Shown piece by piece: positions 3,829 through 47,135 of a stretch of DNA of 64,000 nucleotides. Below the pieces are notes generated by a model that ran no database searches, had not been told where the DNA came from, and worked only from the letters and a program-made list of their open reading frames with translations. The stretch comes from Limnephilus marmoratus (Eukaryota; Arthropoda; Insecta; Trichoptera; Limnephilidae). Each line of letters opens with the position of its first letter. Positions within the stretch are counted from its first letter, which is position 1. A program made the position numbers and the translations under genes. The stretch is taken from contig OU862909.1 in assembly GCA_917880885.1 (NCBI GenBank), forward strand, positions 30,750,405 through 30,814,404, written 5' to 3'.

Positions 3829-3916
3829 CGGCAGAGAGCATGGTTTGTCTAATACGACCAGTTCGTCATCCACGTGAATCAGTTTGACCCTGTCGGCGAG
3901 TACTGGAGTCTCGTGC
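3829..3916 (-). CDS. RPUSD2: RPUSD2-like pseudouridine synthase, alternative exon B (internal coding exon)
   Basis: This 88-bp internal exon has acceptor AG at 3918-3917 after a pyrimidine-rich stretch, and donor GTGAGT starting at 3828. Joined to the AG that ends the exon at 24225, it reads RHETPVLADRV, then LIHVDDELVVLDKPCSLP. In RluA/RPUSD2-type pseudouridine synthases this is the start of the catalytic domain: the (V/I)(V/L)DKP strand-loop that precedes HPCGR and the catalytic Asp motif. Entry is phase 2 and exit phase 0, identical to the exon at 6751-6838. The two share 13 of 30 residues (R, H, E, P, V, H, D, V, V, K, P, S, P), and most other changes are conservative (D/E, I/L/V). It is the more divergent of the pair. 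Intact splice sites and frame argue against a dead duplicate. Mutually exclusive use is inferred from phase and length; it has not been observed in transcripts. Confidence 0.87.
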
Positions 3917-4747
3917 CTTCGTGATGTCGGTATACCAGGAGCACAAGATAGAAACAGAAAAAAATCCAAATAAAAGTCATCGCAATTAGCGACAGGACAG
4001 ACAGCGCCTGGCTGCTAGTGGCTAATGTGACAATGCCACTGGTACTGGCACCTGCAAGCAACCTAGAACGGGAACATATCTACAGAGGACAAATCGCTGA
4101 TCGTGTGTTGTGTATGTGTATTTATGGTCGGAAAATGAGCGTCTGCCCGTTTGAAGCATTGCTCGGGTAAAATGAAATTACTTTTGATTAATCTGAATAC
4201 TTTTCATGCTTAAGGGATGAATAAATATAATAGACAATACAAATAAAAATAATAACATGAAAATGTGAACTCCGAGGACTGCTTAGTAAAACTGAGACAG
4301 TGAAATATACAGGATTTATATTATCAATGTGATATTATGATGGTTGCATGCACCATTCCTTACTACACAAGGGATGTCAAACATATTCAGTTCACACGAA
4401 ACGTTTTTAAAATAAAGATTGATCTACATAAAACAGCGCGAAGTCGGAAAACTTCCGCAGAAGCTTGTCAAGTGAAGGAAATCAAATTAGTGAGGGGAAA
4501 TAGAAATAGCGTACCAACGTAAATGGTAGTTATATAGTCTCCAGATATAGTCTCGGTATATAGTCTCCAGATATCACTGTATCAGTCAATTAGCTAAACC
4601 CAGCATGTTGTTTACGAGGTAAGTCACGAAAGGACGAATAAAGACATTCAAAATAAAACAGAACATATAACAACAAAGAAAAAGAAGACAAAAAACATTG
4701 TTTTCACTGTCTGAAGGTCGGCGTAAAAAACATTTATTTATATATTT

Positions 4748-4945
4748 GACCGGTCAGTGGTTGAGTGGGCATAGCGCTTGGGTCCCACCCGAACGTCGCG
4801 TGTTCGATTCCTCGGCTGGCTAAGTCCTCCATCACAACACACATTTTCGGCTTTCTGTGGTGGTAGTAGGAGATTTTCAAACATTGTTGGGTTATTCGTA
4901 ACCCGGGAATGTTTGTCTTTCTTTAAAAAAATGTATATATTTATT
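4748..4945 (+). mobile_element. tRNA-derived SINE (family distinct from SINE-A)
   Basis: The head carries an A-box-like TGGTTGAGTGGGCATAGCGC and a B-box-like GTGTTCGATTCCTC about 35 bp apart, as in a tRNA gene. A tRNA-unrelated body of about 110 bp and an A-rich 3' tail follow. I saw only one copy in this window. No intact cloverleaf is obvious, so it is a SINE head and not a functional tRNA. Confidence 0.7.
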
Positions 4946-5301
4946 AATTTAAAACAAAATAGTCCACACCACATGGTGAATACGCGAAAAGTTTATGGAA
5001 GGAAACGTTTCACAACTTGTATAAAATACCCCGTTGGAATCAAGCTTTTCTAGGAATTTAAACCCTCGCGTGTGTAAAACATATTATTTAACCTCTGATT
5101 TATCTGATTGATAAAGAATACACATAATTCTTCTTCGTGGAAGACTTTAAAAACTAAGCTTACGTGCAAAGGTAACCCAACGAGATCTTATTTCTGCTCG
5201 CGACGAATGAGTTATTGTTCTGTTTTGAATAGTGGAATTTCGCCATCTTTCACTTTGGGATAAACATAAAGATAAAGAATTGAGTGCAGTTTACACGCGG
5301 T

Positions 5302-5543
5302 AGAAGTGAAACTTTACCAAAACAATCTCAACCAATACTTGAAAAGTGAGGTCATAATCAAAGCGATCAATGAGCGCAGACCAGCGTAATTTCCGTTTCA
5401 TATCTCAACCAACAGGAGCCTTTAAAAGTGACATCATAATCAAAGCGGTCAATGGGCGCAGTTGATGCGTCGCAGGTGCAGTAATCGTCATTTCCGTTTC
5501 ATCCGAAATCCAAATCATAGCGGGGCTATAGAAGTTTCACTTC
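5302..5543. mobile_element. MITE with GAAGTGAAACTT-type terminal inverted repeats
   Basis: The left end reads AGAAGTGAAACTTTA and the right end reads its inverse, TAGAAGTTTCACTTC. Internally a 77-bp segment beginning TCTCAACCA is duplicated in tandem (about 5326 and 5403), each copy carrying AATCAAAGCG and TTTCCGTTTCAT. Related sequence occurs inverted at 11757-11850. An element with similar ends is at 15847-16056. Confidence 0.6.
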
Positions 5544-6750
5544 AAAAACGACAGAAATATATGGAGGTGTGATATCGAAGTCTTTGTGATAATTCAAAAC
5601 TTATACCGTTTATAGTTCAGGAGGGCCGACTTGTGTAACGAAGGTTCAAGCGTCTAAATGTCAAAAGTTTGCATAAACTGTCTACCCCACCAAGTACTCC
5701 TACCGTGCGGCGCGCGGCGGTGAGAGGATATTCACAGTAGGTACAACCGGGTGGCAGTTAACAGGGAGGGAATATTCTTCAAGGTATTCTGATTGTCAAC
5801 TAAACAATAGAGAAACTGTGAAGAGATGTGAGGAGCACAATAAGAGGGAGGGTAACAGTAACGGGTAAGGGTTGAAAACGCAACACGTAAACTTGATGCA
5901 CCCTTCGCACACGTCAGATCCGGAGTCCAGAAGTGGAGAAAAGGAATCTTGACGTGATTAATCTCTGACACGATAGCGTTAAAATGGGAGCAAAGTAAAA
6001 GTGGTTCTACTTCCATACCGAATCTGATTTACTACAAAAGCCCTGACTCCAACACTTGGAAGAGAAAAGTTCCATCGAACACCCCCCGTGATACAGTCTA
6101 TAAGCTCCCTATAAATATAAAACCTTAAATATGAATTTCCTCCGACGGAAGTATTGATATCCAAGAACGCGAATATGCTTTTTACATAATCGAAAACTGG
6201 CGTGATACGTTATATTGACAGGAACAAGTGATTAAATGGTTTTTGAACGATTATTGACGGGGAAGAAACGGGCACGGCAAAGAAAGTTTTACAAGGGTTA
6301 ACCAAATGGAAGATATTAACATCATAATACATATCATAAGTTGTTGTGCTCGGCCATCGATTGAGTAAATCGATACCTTTTCAATTTTATACAAAATATT
6401 TTTTTTATCTATTTAACGCATTGAATCCACCTCTCAAGTTTAAAATAATCGATTGCTACTAAAACGATATAGAAATGATGCTACTTAATAATAATTTTAA
6501 ATTTCAAGGTATAAATTTGAGTGATGTTTCGTAACGGAGTATAAATACCAATTTATAAGCGATAACAATAACATAAAATGTACCTATACACATGCTGTTA
6601 GTAAATACAGATCTACAATGGACGAAGGTTGAGGTTAGTATTGGTCATGCACAAGATACAGGAGAACAGAACAGAACACAGAATAGAGAGGGCCGTGTGT
6701 GCACACGTGGTATAGCGTGGAAGCTGATGGCGGTCTCATAAGCCACTTAC

Positions 6751-6838
6751 GGGGATGGATGCTGGTTTGTTGACGACCACAATATCCTCGTCCATGTGAA
6801 CCACGGTGATTGGTTGGCAGGTCACCGGAACCTCGTGT
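6751..6838 (-). CDS. RPUSD2: RPUSD2-like pseudouridine synthase, alternative exon A (internal coding exon)
   Basis: This 88-bp internal exon has acceptor TGCAG ending at 6839 and donor GTAAGT starting at 6750. Spliced to the exon ending at 24225, it reads RHEVPVTCQPITVV, then HMDEDIVVVNKPASIP. It is the closer match to the canonical RPUSD2/RluA segment in which RHEPPV leads into the DxDIVVVxKP strand and SIPVHP. Family knowledge: these enzymes convert uridine to pseudouridine in RNA, and this segment packs near the active site just before the HRLDR motif carrying the catalytic aspartate. Entry phase 2 and exit phase 0 match exon B exactly. Reading on from A into B puts B out of frame and meets TGA at exon B bases 49-51, so one transcript cannot usefully carry both. 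Confidence 0.92.
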
Positions 6839-8750
6839 CTGCAATCCAACGCACAATTAGCAAACCGGACATGGGTTAAGGAAGTGGACTCGGTAAGGTC
6901 AATGTTCCACCGTCCGGGACAAGGTGCGATGAAAACAAACATATCGTATGTAGGATGGTTAGGTTAGGTTCAATTGTCAAGGAAAACAGGACGATGGTGA
7001 AAATATGTATTAAGATAACTCGATTAATAATAGAAAGGAATGACTGCATTCGCAGCCTAAGTCACTAATACGATTAAACTAAAGATCGAAAAAACAAAAA
7101 TATACAAATTGTTAAAGAAGTCCATACATAAAATTGTGATAGTTCAGAAAACGGGGACATGTATAAAATGGGGGGGAAAAAAACTTTGAAACGATGGAAG
7201 ACAGCTGGGAATAAATCCCCACGATGTAGTAAATTATTTTGGCAAGGAGTTTACAATACAAGTTAACAGGGAGAAATCGTGATAGTGAGTAGGTGGCTGG
7301 CCTACACGCCTTCGACCCACTGAGGAGAAATGTGACGGGGTTACTTGGGGGGTGGTTTTACTTACTAAATGCATTACTACTGATCGATTTTCTTGCTCCG
7401 TGAGGGAAACATCATATAGTGAAGTTTGATAGGGTGGAGAAACAAATTACTTAGGTGGCATGAAATATTTAGAATATAACAGTAGACAAACAAGGATATT
7501 TTCATAAAATAATAATAATTTAATTTTGGTTTGTATTTTCAATACCCACATTATTTATAACACTGTTAAGAGAAATAGGTTAAGGTAGCAGCATACATAT
7601 ATATTAAAATAAATAGTTTTGGAAGAAAAATGTTAAAATATACAAGAACATTGTCCACACAATATTACAGGGAGAATATTTTATAACAACAAAAAAACCA
7701 GGCGGAATGAGTAAAATAATAAAGAGATTTCAATAAAATGTCTGGTGTTGGGAGATTATCCGAAGCCTTTGATATACACAAGAACTTGAACGCCAGAACA
7801 AGTAGATGATAATATAAGAAGTAAATACATTTTTAAAATCAGTGTTTAAAATAGTGATGAGTATTGAAAACCAGACTTAGTAAATGTACACCTCAAAGTT
7901 AGTTTTATACATACCTAATAAGAATAACATTGATTTACAAACAAGGTCATAATAATAATATTAAATGTTTAAAAACACGCTCTATTGAATAGTTTTTTGT
8001 GTAGAATACATAATGAAGAATGACATAATAAGTTGATTCCTTGTAGATAATGGATAGGGAAAGCGTACTCAAACATTTCAGCAAAAGGTAAAAGCTCTTT
8101 AAAGTCAACAAACGTAGAAGTGATCGGGCACAGATAGGCACCACGAATAAAAGAATGTACTCACCGGGGGGTAGTTTGGATACACGTACGAATGCGTGAT
8201 CGCTTCATACGCGTGGCCGCAGTTTTACTCGCATCATCTGGCAGAGCTGCTCCTGGCTCAGGCACCCGCCCCCGCCCCCGCCTGAAGTTGGGCTCAGACG
8301 TGTCCGAAATAATAAATAATCGACTAACTCACCTCTGAGCGCCGCGCAGATTCCACAACACAGGACTCGTATCTTCCGAACTTTTCCCTTTCACTAACTT
8401 TGCATTGTGCGGAAGTTATCTCGATTTGCAGGCCAACGTCAGATCTCATTTATTAACACAGATATTATGGTAAAAAAACCTTTAATGATTGCGGTTCTTC
8501 TTATGTGGTATGGTGCGAGGCAAAGGGAAAATCAAGTTCTGAAGAGCGATTCTGTATCTTTCGTAGATACGGAAACGATTTCATACGTAATCGACTGTTA
8601 AATTTGTGTGCTTTTCTATGGCTGTCAATTGCTTTTTTAATGGGTATCGTAGACAGATACCAGACAGCTTCATTACTTTGCAATGAATGGTACCTGCATA
8701 TTACCACAGAATACAACTTAAATACAACAATATACCCTAAAATATATTCA

Positions 8751-17357: not shown

Positions 17358-17530
17358 CTAATATCTACAGCCTGTATGTCGGAGGAATATCTACAGCTCA
17401 TATGTTGAACTAATATCTACGAACTTCAGAGTGTTGACTAATATCTACAGAGCTAAGGTCGGACGAATATCTATGACGGTCCCAGTGTTGACTAATATCT
17501 ACAGAGCGTAGGTTGGACTAATCAGCTAAA
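17358..17530 (+). repeat. Minisatellite, alternating 26/28-bp units (block 1)
   Basis: The core CTAATATCTAC (or GAATATCTAC) starts at 17358, 17384, 17410, 17438, 17464, 17492 and, decayed, 17518, so spacings are mostly 26 and 28 alternately. The higher-order unit is therefore a 54-bp dimer. Spacers are weakly conserved (ACAGAGC.. and ..GTGTTGA). Confidence 0.8.
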
Positions 17531-17661
17531 TGTGTCCAATAGTCGATATTAGGGATTTTTACATACATACTTACATAAATTAAGTTTTTTAAACCACATA
17601 CGAAATATTACGTTATTCCAATATGCTATACATAATTGGAAATCCAACCTCTGCCAGTGCT

Positions 17662-17847
17662 GTAGATATTCGTCAACACTTTGGTGCTCATAGATATTAG
17701 TCAGCAGTTTGAGCTGTAGATATTCGTCAACACTTTGGTTCTCGTAGATATTAGTCAACAGTTTGAGCTGTAGATATTCGTCAACACTTTGGTTCTCATA
17801 GATATCAGTTCGACTTTTTCAGTTTTTGGAATTCCTGTAGATATTAG
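17662..17847 (-). repeat. Minisatellite, alternating 28/26-bp units (block 2, inverted)
   Basis: The inverse core GTAGATATTCG/GTAGATATTAG starts at 17662, 17690, 17716, 17744, 17770, 17798 and 17837 (spacings 28, 26, 28, 26, 28, 39). It is the same 54-bp dimer as block 1 in opposite orientation, 130 bp away. Spacers are far more uniform here (TCAACACTTTGGTTCTC, TCAACAGTTTGAGCT). Confidence 0.8.
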
Positions 17848-24224: not shown

Positions 24225-24447
24225 CTGTGCACAACGTTGGCCAGCAGGTCGTTGTGGCGTAGGCGGTAGTCTGGCGGCACGCGGTCGTAGTTGACGGTGA
24301 GAGTACCCGCGCGCACGCAGCGCTCGTACTCGGCGGCGGGATGCGCGCGGAACTCCCGCGCGAACACGTCCAGAATGCGCTCGCCAACCCAGCGCCCCTT
24401 CGTGAAGGTGGTGAACGTGAAGTAGTACGGGTACACCTTGCGGAGAC
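24225..24447 (-). CDS. RPUSD2: RPUSD2-like pseudouridine synthase, S4-like domain exon
   Basis: This 223-bp internal exon has acceptor TTGCAG ending at 24448 and donor GTAAAT beginning at 24224. With the G carried over from the exon at 47048 it reads GLRKVYPYYFTFTTFTKGRW, then VGERILDVFAREFRAH, CVRAGTLTVNYDRVPPDYRL and HNDLLANVVHR. This matches the S4-like RNA-binding region of RPUSD2-type RluA enzymes (YPYYF...KGRWVG...FRAHP...AG.L.VN...DY.L..ND.L...VHRHE) without gaps. Entry phase is 1 and exit phase 2. Base composition is markedly GC-rich against its intron, typical of a constrained exon. The VHR end is completed by the next exon's R and H, which both alternative exons provide. Confidence 0.94.
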
Positions 24448-40937: not shown

Positions 40938-42800
40938 TCATATCAGAGGGTTCGGCTCTGTGGCATTTCTAATTGAACCTATAAATCCTACTGATCCCTC
41001 AATATAAATATTTAAAAAATCTTTTGTAATCCTACATGTATTTAAAATTACTGCTTTTTGCATTTTTATATACAAATTCTTTGACAAATCTAATATGTTT
41101 AAATTTTGAATCAGATTCCTAGGTATTATGCCAGTGGCCGAAATAACAAATGGTAATATTTTTATAGTCCGAGAATGCCAAATTCTTTTAATCTCATTTC
41201 CTAAATCTGTGTATTTTCTAATTTTTTCAGAAACAGTTTTTTGAATATTACAGGAATTTGGAATAGCTACATCAATGATATAAGTTATTTTTTTAATTTT
41301 GTCATGTAAAACTATATCAGGTCTATTATGACTAATTGTTCTGTCTGTTAGTATAGTTTTATCATAATATATTTTATAAAATTCATTTTCTATAAATGAA
41401 TTTGGTTCATATTCATAATAAGGTACTACATTACGGCAATCAATCAAGTTATGTTTAATTACCAAACTTTGGTGAATTATTTTTAAAACCTGATTGTGCC
41501 TAAATGTATACTCGGAAGGCGCTAATATAGAACATCCCGATATAATATGTTCTATAGTTTCGGGAAAAGCCAAACATTTTCTACATAAATCATCAATTTG
41601 ATTTATATCTTTGATTATATGCTTTCTATAATTTTTAGTATTAATGACTCTATCTTGCATTGCAAGCATAAATCCTTCTATTTCTGCGCTCAACTCTCCA
41701 ATACTCAACCATTTGTTTGACGAAAGTTTGTCAACATACGTTTGGTTGAGATAATTGAAGTGTTTTGCGTGAATAATTTTATTTGACCAGGAATCTAATA
41801 ATTCCTGGTTAGTATTTATAAGAATGTTGGCATTCTCGTCATATAAATTTAAAGGTGTAATATTTCTATCTGCCTTGCAAATTATTTTGTGCATTTCTGA
41901 GCTATTAGCTTTCCTATGGAAAAAATTTCTAAGCATTTCTACCTGATTGTGTTTCAAAGATGTTATTTTGACTACACCTCTACCTCCTAAATTTCTAGGT
42001 AAATTAATTCGTTCTATAGCTGAATTTGGATGATGGCAATTAAATTTTGTTAACGTAGTTCTAATTAATCGTTCTAAACTATCTAAATCTGTATTGGACC
42101 ATTTAATTATGCCAAATGAGTACGTTAGTAGAGGTATTGCCCAAGTATTTATTGCTTTTACTAAATTTTTAGCAGATAGATTGCATTTTAAAATTTTTCT
42201 GATCCTAGTTTGAAATTTAATCCTAATATCATTTTTAATACTAGTGTGATCTAATCTATTCGATTGCGGGTATCCTAAATATTTATAAACCTCATCCCCT
42301 TTCATACTTTGAATTTTGAAATTTCTAAATATACCCTCGTCTCCATCTACAATTTTGCCTTTCTCTATATGGATAGTTTTACATTTATCTAAACCAAAAG
42401 TCATTTTAATATCATCTGAAAAAATTTTAACTACCTTAATCATTTTCTCTAAATTTGAAAATAATTTTATATCATCCATATATAATAGATGTGAAACTAT
42501 ACTACTCTCTCTTGTATTACCCTTAATTTTTATTCCAAACTTGCTTTTAATTAACATTTTAGAAAGGGGATTCAATGCTAAGCAAAACCAAAGAGGGCTC
42601 AATGAGTCTCCTTGAAAAATCCCTCTTTTTATTGAAATGCCCGGTACTACTATTTTCTTACCTTTTAAATTAACTAGCAAATCTGTATTCCAAAAGGACA
42701 TAATATTTTTCAAAAAGCTAATTATAATTGGGTTAACTTTATATATTTTTAATATTTTGATCAGCCACGAGTGCGGGACACTATCAAAAGCTTTTTGATA
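40938..42800 (-). CDS. R4/Dong-like RT plus restriction-like endonuclease, 5'-truncated ORF
   Basis: An open frame of about 620 codons with no stop or frameshift. From the truncated end it reads YQKAFDSVPHSWL (RT motif A without its first catalytic Asp), FQGDSLSPLWF at about residue 62-72, LLYMDDIKLF with the YMDD box at about 107-110, then the RT thumb (YLGYPQ). Near the C-terminus is a zinc knuckle CRKC...EHIISGC and the endonuclease core RPDIVL...IIDVAIP of the PD-(D/E)XK type found in R2/R4 elements. The frame ends at TGA 40940-40938. It cannot be functional alone because the 5' part is missing, but its openness shows recent insertion. It has no host role. Confidence 0.9.
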   Translation of the reverse strand, partial: YQKAFDSVPHSWLIKILKIYKVNPIIISFLKNIMSFWNTDLLVNLKGKKIVVPGISIKRGIFQGDSLSPLWFCLALNPLSKMLIKSKFGIKIKGNTRESSIVSHLLYMDDIKLFSNLEKMIKVVKIFSDDIKMTFGLDKCKTIHIEKGKIVDGDEGIFRNFKIQSMKGDEVYKYLGYPQSNRLDHTSIKNDIRIKFQTRIRKILKCNLSAKNLVKAINTWAIPLLTYSFGIIKWSNTDLDSLERLIRTTLTKFNCHHPNSAIERINLPRNLGGRGVVKITSLKHNQVEMLRNFFHRKANSSEMHKIICKADRNITPLNLYDENANILINTNQELLDSWSNKIIHAKHFNYLNQTYVDKLSSNKWLSIGELSAEIEGFMLAMQDRVINTKNYRKHIIKDINQIDDLCRKCLAFPETIEHIISGCSILAPSEYTFRHNQVLKIIHQSLVIKHNLIDCRNVVPYYEYEPNSFIENEFYKIYYDKTILTDRTISHNRPDIVLHDKIKKITYIIDVAIPNSCNIQKTVSEKIRKYTDLGNEIKRIWHSRTIKILPFVISATGIIPRNLIQNLNILDLSKNLYIKMQKAVILNTCRITKDFLNIYIEGSVGFIGSIRNATEPNPLI

Positions 42801-43106
42801 ATTTTAATATTACAATTTGAGGTTTTTCTCATTAAGTTAAAAATAAAAATAAATATTCATCATAGACTTGCAGACAAGTCAATGGATGTCGCGTATTAAA
42901 TAAAAATTGATAAATTTATCCAAGACACTATCTAGATAGCATTTAGATCTGGATGAATCTTGCAATCATATTATAAAGATAAAGGTCAAAGAAATATGCG
43001 TTAAGAAAATGAAGATAATGTTGGTAGTTCTTAGTCGAAATATGATACAGTTAAAGATGACCGAATCGGGTAAGTACACTTTAGCTCAGTTGGTATAGTT
43101 CAAGTC

Positions 43107-44785
43107 AAGGCTAACTTACTAGGTAAAATGTTTGCGGATAACTCAACCCTCGATGACCAAGGTGCTGTCCCGACGTCGGTTCCTCACTGCGGTTTTCATA
43201 TGAAAAAGCTGAGGATCCGGCATCGGGAAGTACTCCATGTTTTACGAGGGCTTGATGTTAATAAAGCTAGTGGGCCCGACGGAATACCTGCCCTGGTATT
43301 GCAGAGGTGCGCTGCAGAATTAGCTCCAATTTTGACGAAGCTTTTTAAACTGTCCCTGAAGACTGGCTCTGTGCCCTCTGGTTGGAAAAAAGCGGTTATC
43401 CATCCTATTCCAAAGAAGGGTGACCGCTCCAACCCGGCCAACTACCGCCCCATAGCGATCACATCAGTTCTGTCTAAGGTGATGGAACGTGTGATCAACG
43501 ACAAACTGCTCACATACCTCGAGAAGAACAAAATTATCAACGACCGTCAATACGGATTCCGGCGGAACCGCTCGTGCGGTGATCTTCTCGCGTATGTGAC
43601 GCATGTTTGGACTGGACATCTCCAAGGCCTTTGACCGGGTTTGGCACCGAGGACTTGTCAACAAACTGCTTTCTTACGGACTTCCCGCATCCTTGTGTAC
43701 GTGGATTGCCAACTTCTTGAGGGGGAGGTCGATTCAGACGGTAGTCGATGGTTTCACCTCTTCCTCACACTCGATAAATGCTGGCGTCCCGCAGGGATCG
43801 GTTCTGTCTCCAACTTTGTTTTTGTTGCACATCAACGACCTTTTGTCATGTGCACCAATTCACTGTTATGCGGATGACAGTACAGTTCATGATAGCTTTT
43901 TGTTTGACAAGCCCCCAAAGGGCTCACAAACTCCAACAGCTCGTAGGGCTTTGAAGCAAAGAATGGACGGCTACCTCGAGAGTGTTTTCTCTTGGGGTAA
44001 AAATAATCTCGTTGAATTTAATGTTTCAAAGACCCAATCTTGTCTGATTACGTCCAAAAGGGATCGAAATGAAAATCTAGTCTCTTTCAACGGAAGCAAT
44101 CTTCCGAACAGGCCCTCCATTGATATGCTTGGTGTAACCCTAAGTGACCAGCTCAGGTATGGGGGCTCCATTGAAGCCAGAGTAAAGCTAGCCTCCCAAA
44201 AACTGGGCGTACTGTACAGGGCCCGCAGATACTTTAATAGTACACAACTGCTAACCTTGTACAAATCACAAGTACGCCCCACGGTTGAATTTGGCAGCCA
44301 CCTCTGGTCTGGAGCTCCAAAATACCTGAAAAATACCCCCGACTCTGTGCAGAAACGGGCGGTCCGTTTGATAGATTCTCCCATCTTAACAGACGGATTG
44401 CAATCTTTAGAGCACAGGCGTCGGGTGGGAATGCTATCCTTGTTCTACCGGTTTTACAATGGAAGATGCTCCGAAGAACTAGCATCATTGATCCCTTCGG
44501 CACCGGTGCATAGTCGGGAAACACGCCAAATGCGTGCCCAATGGTTGACATTTGTCACATGAGAACGAATCGTTTCTTCGACTAGTTCTTGCGTTCAACA
44601 GCTCGGCTGTGGAATGATTTGCCGGCCTCTGTGTTTCCTCCTTCCTACAACATGGGTCTCTTCAAGACCAATGTTCATTCCTTCGTCTCCTCAAAAAGAC
44701 GCTCCACACAGCATCCCAGATGACTTAGGCCCTGAGGGAAATTATTTTCCTCAGGGCCTCCTGTGTGGAGTTCATGAAAAAAAAA
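43107..44785 (+). mobile_element. Jockey/CR1-like LINE, 5'-truncated, frameshifted
   Basis: RT frame 1 (to about 43608) reads MFADNSTLDD, VNKASGPDGIPALVLQRC, WKKAVIHPIPKKGD, NYRPIAITSVLSKVMERVI and RQYGFRRNRSCGDLLAYVTH. Frame 2 (from about 43609) reads LDISKAFDRVWHRGL, NAGVPQGSVLSPTLF and HCYADDSTVHDSF (YADD box), down to about 44562. A short deletion joins YVTH to LDISKAF, so the RT is broken between its fingers and motif A. Late coding pieces (RLWNDLPASVFPPSYNMGLF) continue out of frame to about 44690, followed by the tail at 44702-44785. The 5' endonuclease is lost. Confidence 0.88.
44702..44785 (+). other. LINE 3' tail with two nested hairpins, shared with SINE-B
   Basis: The outer stem CTCCACACAG (44702-44711) pairs with CTGTGTGGAG (44761-44770). 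The inner stem GGCCCTGAGG (44728-44737) pairs with CCTCAGGGCC (44749-44758). Both are perfect 10-bp stems, followed by TTCATG and an A run. The same sequence ends the full SINE-B copies. In known LINE/SINE pairs such a tail is the reverse transcriptase recognition site. Confidence 0.85.
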
Positions 44786-47047: not shown

Positions 47048-47135
47048 CGTTTTCGATGTAGTATGAAGTCTCGTTATAGCGGTCATCAGTGAAGCCGGGT
47101 CTCTTCGCCTTGAGGGCCTTGGTCTCCAGCTTTGC
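47048..47135 (-). CDS. RPUSD2: RPUSD2-like pseudouridine synthase, most 5' exon in the window
   Basis: This 88-bp internal exon has acceptor CTGTTGCAG ending at 47136 after a CT-rich tract (CACTCTGTGCATCCCGTCTG), and donor GTAAGTT at 47047. It enters in phase 0 and reads AKLETKALKAKRPGFTDDRY then NETSYYIENG, where the last G is completed across the intron. KRPGF.D.RYNETSYY.ENGLRKVYPYYF is the conserved start of RPUSD2-type proteins, so the join to 24447 is gapless. A start codon is not part of it: the exon opens with an acceptor, so more N-terminal exon(s) lie upstream, probably beyond the window. The next intron is 22.6 kb. Confidence 0.88.

Follow-up and report, generated by a model that had tools for sequence, protein, structure and literature searches.

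The window, by which we mean the whole stretch of 64,000 nt at C4:30750405-30814404 of the assembly, carries on its minus strand part of a gene that we infer, from characteristic features, to encode a pseudouridine synthase of the RPUSD2/RluA-2 type. We take HRHE..PV and VHPCGRYRHN to be the features on which this name rests, together with an earlier sequence-only reading of the same DNA. That reading had described two exons of 88 nt, here called A and B, with AG and GT borders, phases of 2 in and 0 out and related peptides, and all of these properties were recovered when the sequence was re-read. Our exon search was extended beyond the window, and exons e0, e3, e4, e5 and e6 are additions to the earlier gene model. 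The features concerned are:

Exon e0, 47048..47135, minus strand, 88 nt, phase 0 in and 1 out, AKLETKALKAKRPGFTDDRYNETSYYIEN, placed from sequence, splice sites and frame
Exon e1, 24225..24447, minus strand, 223 nt, phase 1 in and 2 out, LRKVYPYYF...LLANVVH plus the AG of a shared Arg codon
Exon A, 6751..6838, minus strand, 88 nt, phase 2 in and 0 out, peptide RHEVPVTCQPITVVHMDEDIVVVNKPASIP
A-B intron, 3917..6750, minus strand, 2834 nt, GT-AG
Exon B, 3829..3916, minus strand, 88 nt, phase 2 in and 0 out, peptide RHETPVLADRVKLIHVDDELVVLDKPCSLP
Exon e3, C4:30746967-30746859, outside the window, phase 0 in, VHPCGRYRHN...HRLDRLTSG
Exon e4, C4:30744369-30744258, outside the window
Exon e5, C4:30733356-30733166, outside the window
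Exon e6, starting at C4:30732096, outside the window

A further stretch with LVMYLHAWKYQ was seen near C4:30730745. The introns measure 22.6 kb (e0-e1), 17.4 kb (e1-A), 2.8 kb (A-B), 7.3 kb (B-e3), 2.5 kb (e3-e4) and 10.9 kb (e4-e5). Reverse-transcriptase open frames in the e0-e1 intron, at 40944-42803 on the minus strand and 43074-44559 on the plus strand (RVT_1 matches of 51.3, 34.6 and 70.4 bits), are probably LINE-type elements. Two tandem-repeat arrays about 135 bases apart occupy 17360-17809; they run in opposite orientations, and their units, of periods 26, 28 and 54, are related. No structured RNA above Rfam thresholds and no tRNA was found in the window.

Exons A and B are each preceded by AG, followed by GT and end at a codon border. 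As the earlier reading had proposed, both fit the AG left by e1 at 24225, the junction codon being AGA with A and AGG with B, so that Arg is encoded either way. The next downstream exon, which that reading had left to be located, proved to be e3; it starts in phase 0, and whichever of A and B precedes it, the result is a full RluA enzyme. The joined exons e0-e1-A-e3-e4-e5 and e0-e1-B-e3-e4-e5 are both open end to end. By contrast, joint inclusion of A and B shifted the frame and met a TGA inside B, and joining e0 and e1 onward without A or B left phase 2 over and a shifted frame, bearing out in spliced frames the claim that double inclusion and double skipping each break the reading frame.

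Relatedness and copy number of the two exons

The two exons share 51 of 88 bases, and their peptides are identical at 13 of 30 positions and similar (BLOSUM62 > 0) at 23 of 30. For a measure of chance we used the 22,107 stop-free 30-codon stretches of the window, taken at all offsets on both strands. Scored against A with BLOSUM62, this background had a mean of -30 and a standard deviation of 11.4; A itself scored 159, B 88 and the third-best stretch 19. Of the 78 open candidates, A among them, that span 88 nt between AG and GT in the required phase, B scored 88 and the next one -3. When each exon was compared alone with the TIGR00005 profile, both fell on the same profile positions, 63-92, A with 29.9 bits (E 3.3e-7) and B with 16.5 bits (E 0.0039). 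A search of the whole 1.63-Gb genome with the B peptide gave two matches from two candidates scored, namely B itself and A (E 0.0156). The co-location on TIGR00005, the BLOSUM62 background and the genome search together led us to reject a chance match, and the homology noted by the earlier reading, its 13 identities now recomputed, lies far above chance by BLOSUM62. Neither a Pfam family nor a PDB sequence was matched by the short pieces e1+A and e1+B, which cover just the N-terminal edge of the domain. In a comparison of 1 kb of DNA on either side of A with that around B, no significant similarity was found (lowest E 0.15, with E 1.9 for the exons), which fits an old duplication yet gives it no positive support.

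Exon by exon, we searched the whole genome at E up to 1 with a 310-residue query of the A form (e1, A and e3-e6, with e0 left out), only the best candidates being scored. Seven matches were obtained from eight candidates, and they correspond to e1, A, B, e3, e4, e5 and e6 at one locus; among these best candidates, A/B is thus the only query exon doubled in the genome. In the same search neither e1 nor any of e3-e6 showed a second copy, and no retroposed (spliced) copy appeared. Over C4:30711000-30844404, e3 occurs once, the sole other match being weak (E 0.29), and besides B only a weak match (E 0.37) to exon A appeared. Neither e1 nor e3 has a second copy inside the A-B intron (3917..6750). 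We accordingly rejected a second gene or a partial gene duplication: among e1, A/B and e3-e6, A/B alone turned up a second time in the genome search.

A genome search with PF00849 gave three matches, to e4, to e5 and to a locus on C2. The latter (L001, G000:C2:36649432-36649722) is a PF00849 exon of 41.3 bits that reads RLDFATSGVICLGKT; by eye it is RPUSD1-like, and a reverse-transcriptase-like frame adjoins it. Searches for close relatives in bacterial genome contigs and in viral contigs gave 56 and 8 pattern matches, none of which was confirmed.

Enzymes encoded with either exon

We assembled 340-aa forms from e0, e1, A or B, and e3-e6, the gene's first and last exons not being delimited. 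On TIGR00005 the A form scored 245.3 bits and the B form 231.3 bits (cut-off 192.7), and on PF00849 they scored 117.3 and 113.0 (cut-off 26.8), so that by both cut-offs the product belongs to the RluA family with either exon. The TIGR00005 match begins at residue 48, within e1, and ahead of the catalytic domain no Pfam S4 match was found in the 340-aa forms at E<=0.001.

Among the structures considered were 1xpi, 1v9f, 2i82 and 5uba, which we take to be E. coli RluC, RluD and RluA, and RPUSD4, the species being our assumption. The A and B forms matched the RluC structure 1xpi equally (87.9 vs 88.0 bits), whereas the A form was the better match to the RluD structure 1prz (75.1 vs 65.6 bits) and to the RluA structure (72.5 vs 68.8 bits). 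The alignments of both forms with RluC, RluD, RluA and RPUSD4 start inside the A/B exon (query residues 104-133) and run on across motif I and the catalytic domain; most of them leave out the first 8-12 residues of that exon. Unlike the candidate A/B gene, each of the four enzymes is listed as a single sequence form.

We take HRLD to be the catalytic motif and KP to be motif I of RluA-family enzymes, the KP of the A/B exon presumably being the core of motif I. KP is present in both A and B, where it aligns with the KP of RluC, RluD and RluA, and HRLDRLTSG is encoded by the shared e3. The position assigned to the segment by the earlier reading, directly ahead of HRLDR, is thereby confirmed. Motif I is named in PMC7718762.

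Splice signals, constraint on B and the readings they favor

Splice sites were scored in a simple manner, from general percentages, and ranked against the minus-strand AG and GT sites of the region. The acceptors of e0, e1, e3, e4 and e5 all fell within the top 3% of AG sites, whereas those of A (top 26%) and B (top 47%) were the two weakest among the seven exons. The donors of all seven lay within the top 3.1% of GT sites, that of A being the weakest (3.1%) and that of B strong (top 0.23%). Two acceptor regions are relevant here:

A acceptor region, 6839..6860, minus strand, with a possible branch site CTAAT at 6860-6856, by eye
B acceptor region, 3917..4007, minus strand, with its AG at 3918-3917 after an AG-free stretch of 89 nt

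Close to its AG the B acceptor is poor, reading CCGACATCACGAAG. By eye, a pyrimidine run lies farther upstream, at about 3964-3937 or some 20-48 nt before the AG, and a possible branch site CTAAT at 3989-3985. Gaps of at least 90 between AGs make up 1.8% of the 6145 AG gaps, and the 89-nt AG-free stretch, combined with the upstream pyrimidine run, suggests a distant branch site for B. By eye, the octamer GCTAATTG precedes both A (6861-6854) and B (3990-3983) on the minus strand, at some 20 nt from the AG for A and some 70 nt for B; it may be a common branch-site sequence or may be shared by chance.

The restriction of weak acceptors to A and B suits a regulated splice choice. Steric blocking is an unlikely exclusivity device over 2834 nt, the distance that separates A from B, and was set aside; the introns are of the GT-AG type. 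In ten intron-intron comparisons within 400 nt of the exons, which had no control, we found helices of 10-13 pairs, none of which stood out as a paired intron element for exclusivity. Loss of frame and decay of the wrong products would be the simplest device.

To gauge constraint on B, A was mutated randomly, without selection, until it reached 51/88 DNA identity, A being taken as the ancestor for simplicity. Of 3000 runs, 1150 remained without a stop, and none was both stop-free and scored at least 88 (mean over all runs 31.5, maximum 86). Amino-acid identity gave a weaker contrast, with 156 of 3000 runs reaching at least 13 identities. The differences between A and B number 14, 6 and 16 at the first, second and third positions of 29 codons, a bias that is modest on its own, and, in a region of 35% GC, the three codon positions of B have GC fractions of 0.72, 0.28 and 0.59. 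The drift scores, the codon-position differences and the codon-position GC together argue that the B peptide has been constrained through most of its history, with which a recent loss of use would still be compatible. The old, maintained duplication proposed by the sequence-only reading is very probable.

Considering these results jointly, we regard it as likely, with good though not full confidence, that a single-copy RPUSD2/RluA-2-type gene keeps A and B as a mutually exclusive pair derived from an old tandem exon duplication, and the gene probably has the capacity to encode two enzyme versions. An internal exon of 88 nt would have been duplicated in tandem long ago, giving A and B. The pre-mRNA would join e1 to A or to B and then to e3, yielding a full enzyme either way; the choice would be regulated through the weak acceptors of the two exons, and products of double inclusion or double skipping would be removed, since their frame breaks. 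Between the two forms, 17 of 30 residues would differ in a segment that links the N-terminal part to the catalytic domain and contains motif I. Since KP occurs in A and B alike, and shared exons encode HRLD and the motifs after it, the likeliest effect would be a tuning of how RNA is held or of which RNAs are modified, and not a change of chemistry.

Other histories of B would account for part of the evidence. It could be a relic, a duplicated exon that was formerly used and is now spliced little or not at all, its acceptor having decayed; near its AG, B does have the weakest acceptor among the seven exons that were scored, and its family score is below that of A (16.5 vs 29.9 bits on TIGR00005). 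We nevertheless consider this unlikely, because B has an open frame, exact borders and a strong donor, a coding-like composition and a full-family fit, and no drift run of 3000 matched it by BLOSUM score; a recent loss of use is the one version that stays likely. Only a slim chance is given to B, or A, acting as a poison exon, in which case adding B to an A transcript would bring in a stop and lower the amount of enzyme, the homology being left from the exon's origin. The TGA that an A+B product meets inside B, and an A-B intron that at 2834 nt is long enough for joint inclusion, are in keeping with such a role; it needs no protein constraint, however, whereas the peptide of B fits the RluA profile and shows signs of constraint.

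That B is part of a second, overlapping or neighboring paralogous gene, as with Drosophila RluA-1 and RluA-2, is very improbable. The two fly genes are apparently close together, to judge from PMC7718762 and PMC9997552. This reading is largely refuted, as no second e1 or e3-e6 was found in the genome among the best candidates at E up to 1 (e0 being outside the query) and e3 is single in C4:30711000-30844404 apart from the weak match at E 0.29.

A probable mutually exclusive pair in an RNA-modification enzyme

Stand-alone pseudouridine synthases are usually taken to follow the rule of one gene, one enzyme. Mutually exclusive exons arising by tandem exon duplication are treated by Pillmann et al. 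2011 (PMC3228551), and also in PMC9741552; the criteria of the former include a length difference within 20 aa, a length of at least 15 aa and a minimum homology score of 15%. Set against these, A and B are both 88 nt long; both are GT-AG exons with phases of 2 in and 0 out, followed by e3 in phase 0; their homology score is 88/159, or 55%, if the 15% is read relative to the self score; and one copy each of the flanking e1 and e3 was found, making them internal neighbors. On these four sequence criteria A and B qualify as candidate mutually exclusive exons, the fifth criterion of that paper being transcript evidence. Known mutually exclusive exons likewise agree in length, phases, splice type, homology and shared flanks, and A and B resemble known tandem-duplicated exons in having numerous conservative changes (23 of 30 positions > 0). 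Unlike the known cases, the candidate A/B pair sits in an RNA-modification enzyme. A search of the titles and opening lines of abstracts of the papers listed, with supplements and most subscription papers outside it, found no report of mutually exclusive exons in RluA/RPUSD enzymes, and in the main text of PMC9741552 neither pseudouridine nor RPUSD occurs. The kind of arrangement is already known; an RluA/RPUSD enzyme is an unexpected host for it.

In Drosophila, according to PMC7718762 and PMC9997552, RluA-1 is found mainly in sensory neurons and RluA-2 is ubiquitous. Fly RluA-2 appears to be active on many RNA classes, 423 sites being missing in the mutant (PMC9997552). PMC7718762 mentions isoforms RluA-1 A, B and C and RluA-2 C, and a fly counterpart of the A/B exon pair among the RluA-1/RluA-2 isoforms is possible. 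RluA-1 and RluA-2 are of the same family as the A/B gene and place two related enzymes at the animal's disposal, as the A/B gene probably does; they are, however, two whole genes, whereas here the best genome candidates show a single gene in which one exon is doubled.

The A/B pair would be an exon-duplication counterpart of the fly's gene duplication. Whether exon choice at motif I goes as far as producing two synthases with different RNA targets, and thereby a tissue- or stage-dependent splicing switch of the epitranscriptome, is a tentative proposal that we hold to be rather doubtful; if true, splicing would take the role that the RluA-1/RluA-2 gene pair plays in flies. A maintained swap beside motif I would offer a natural experiment on RNA choice, with enzymes identical but for 17 residues.
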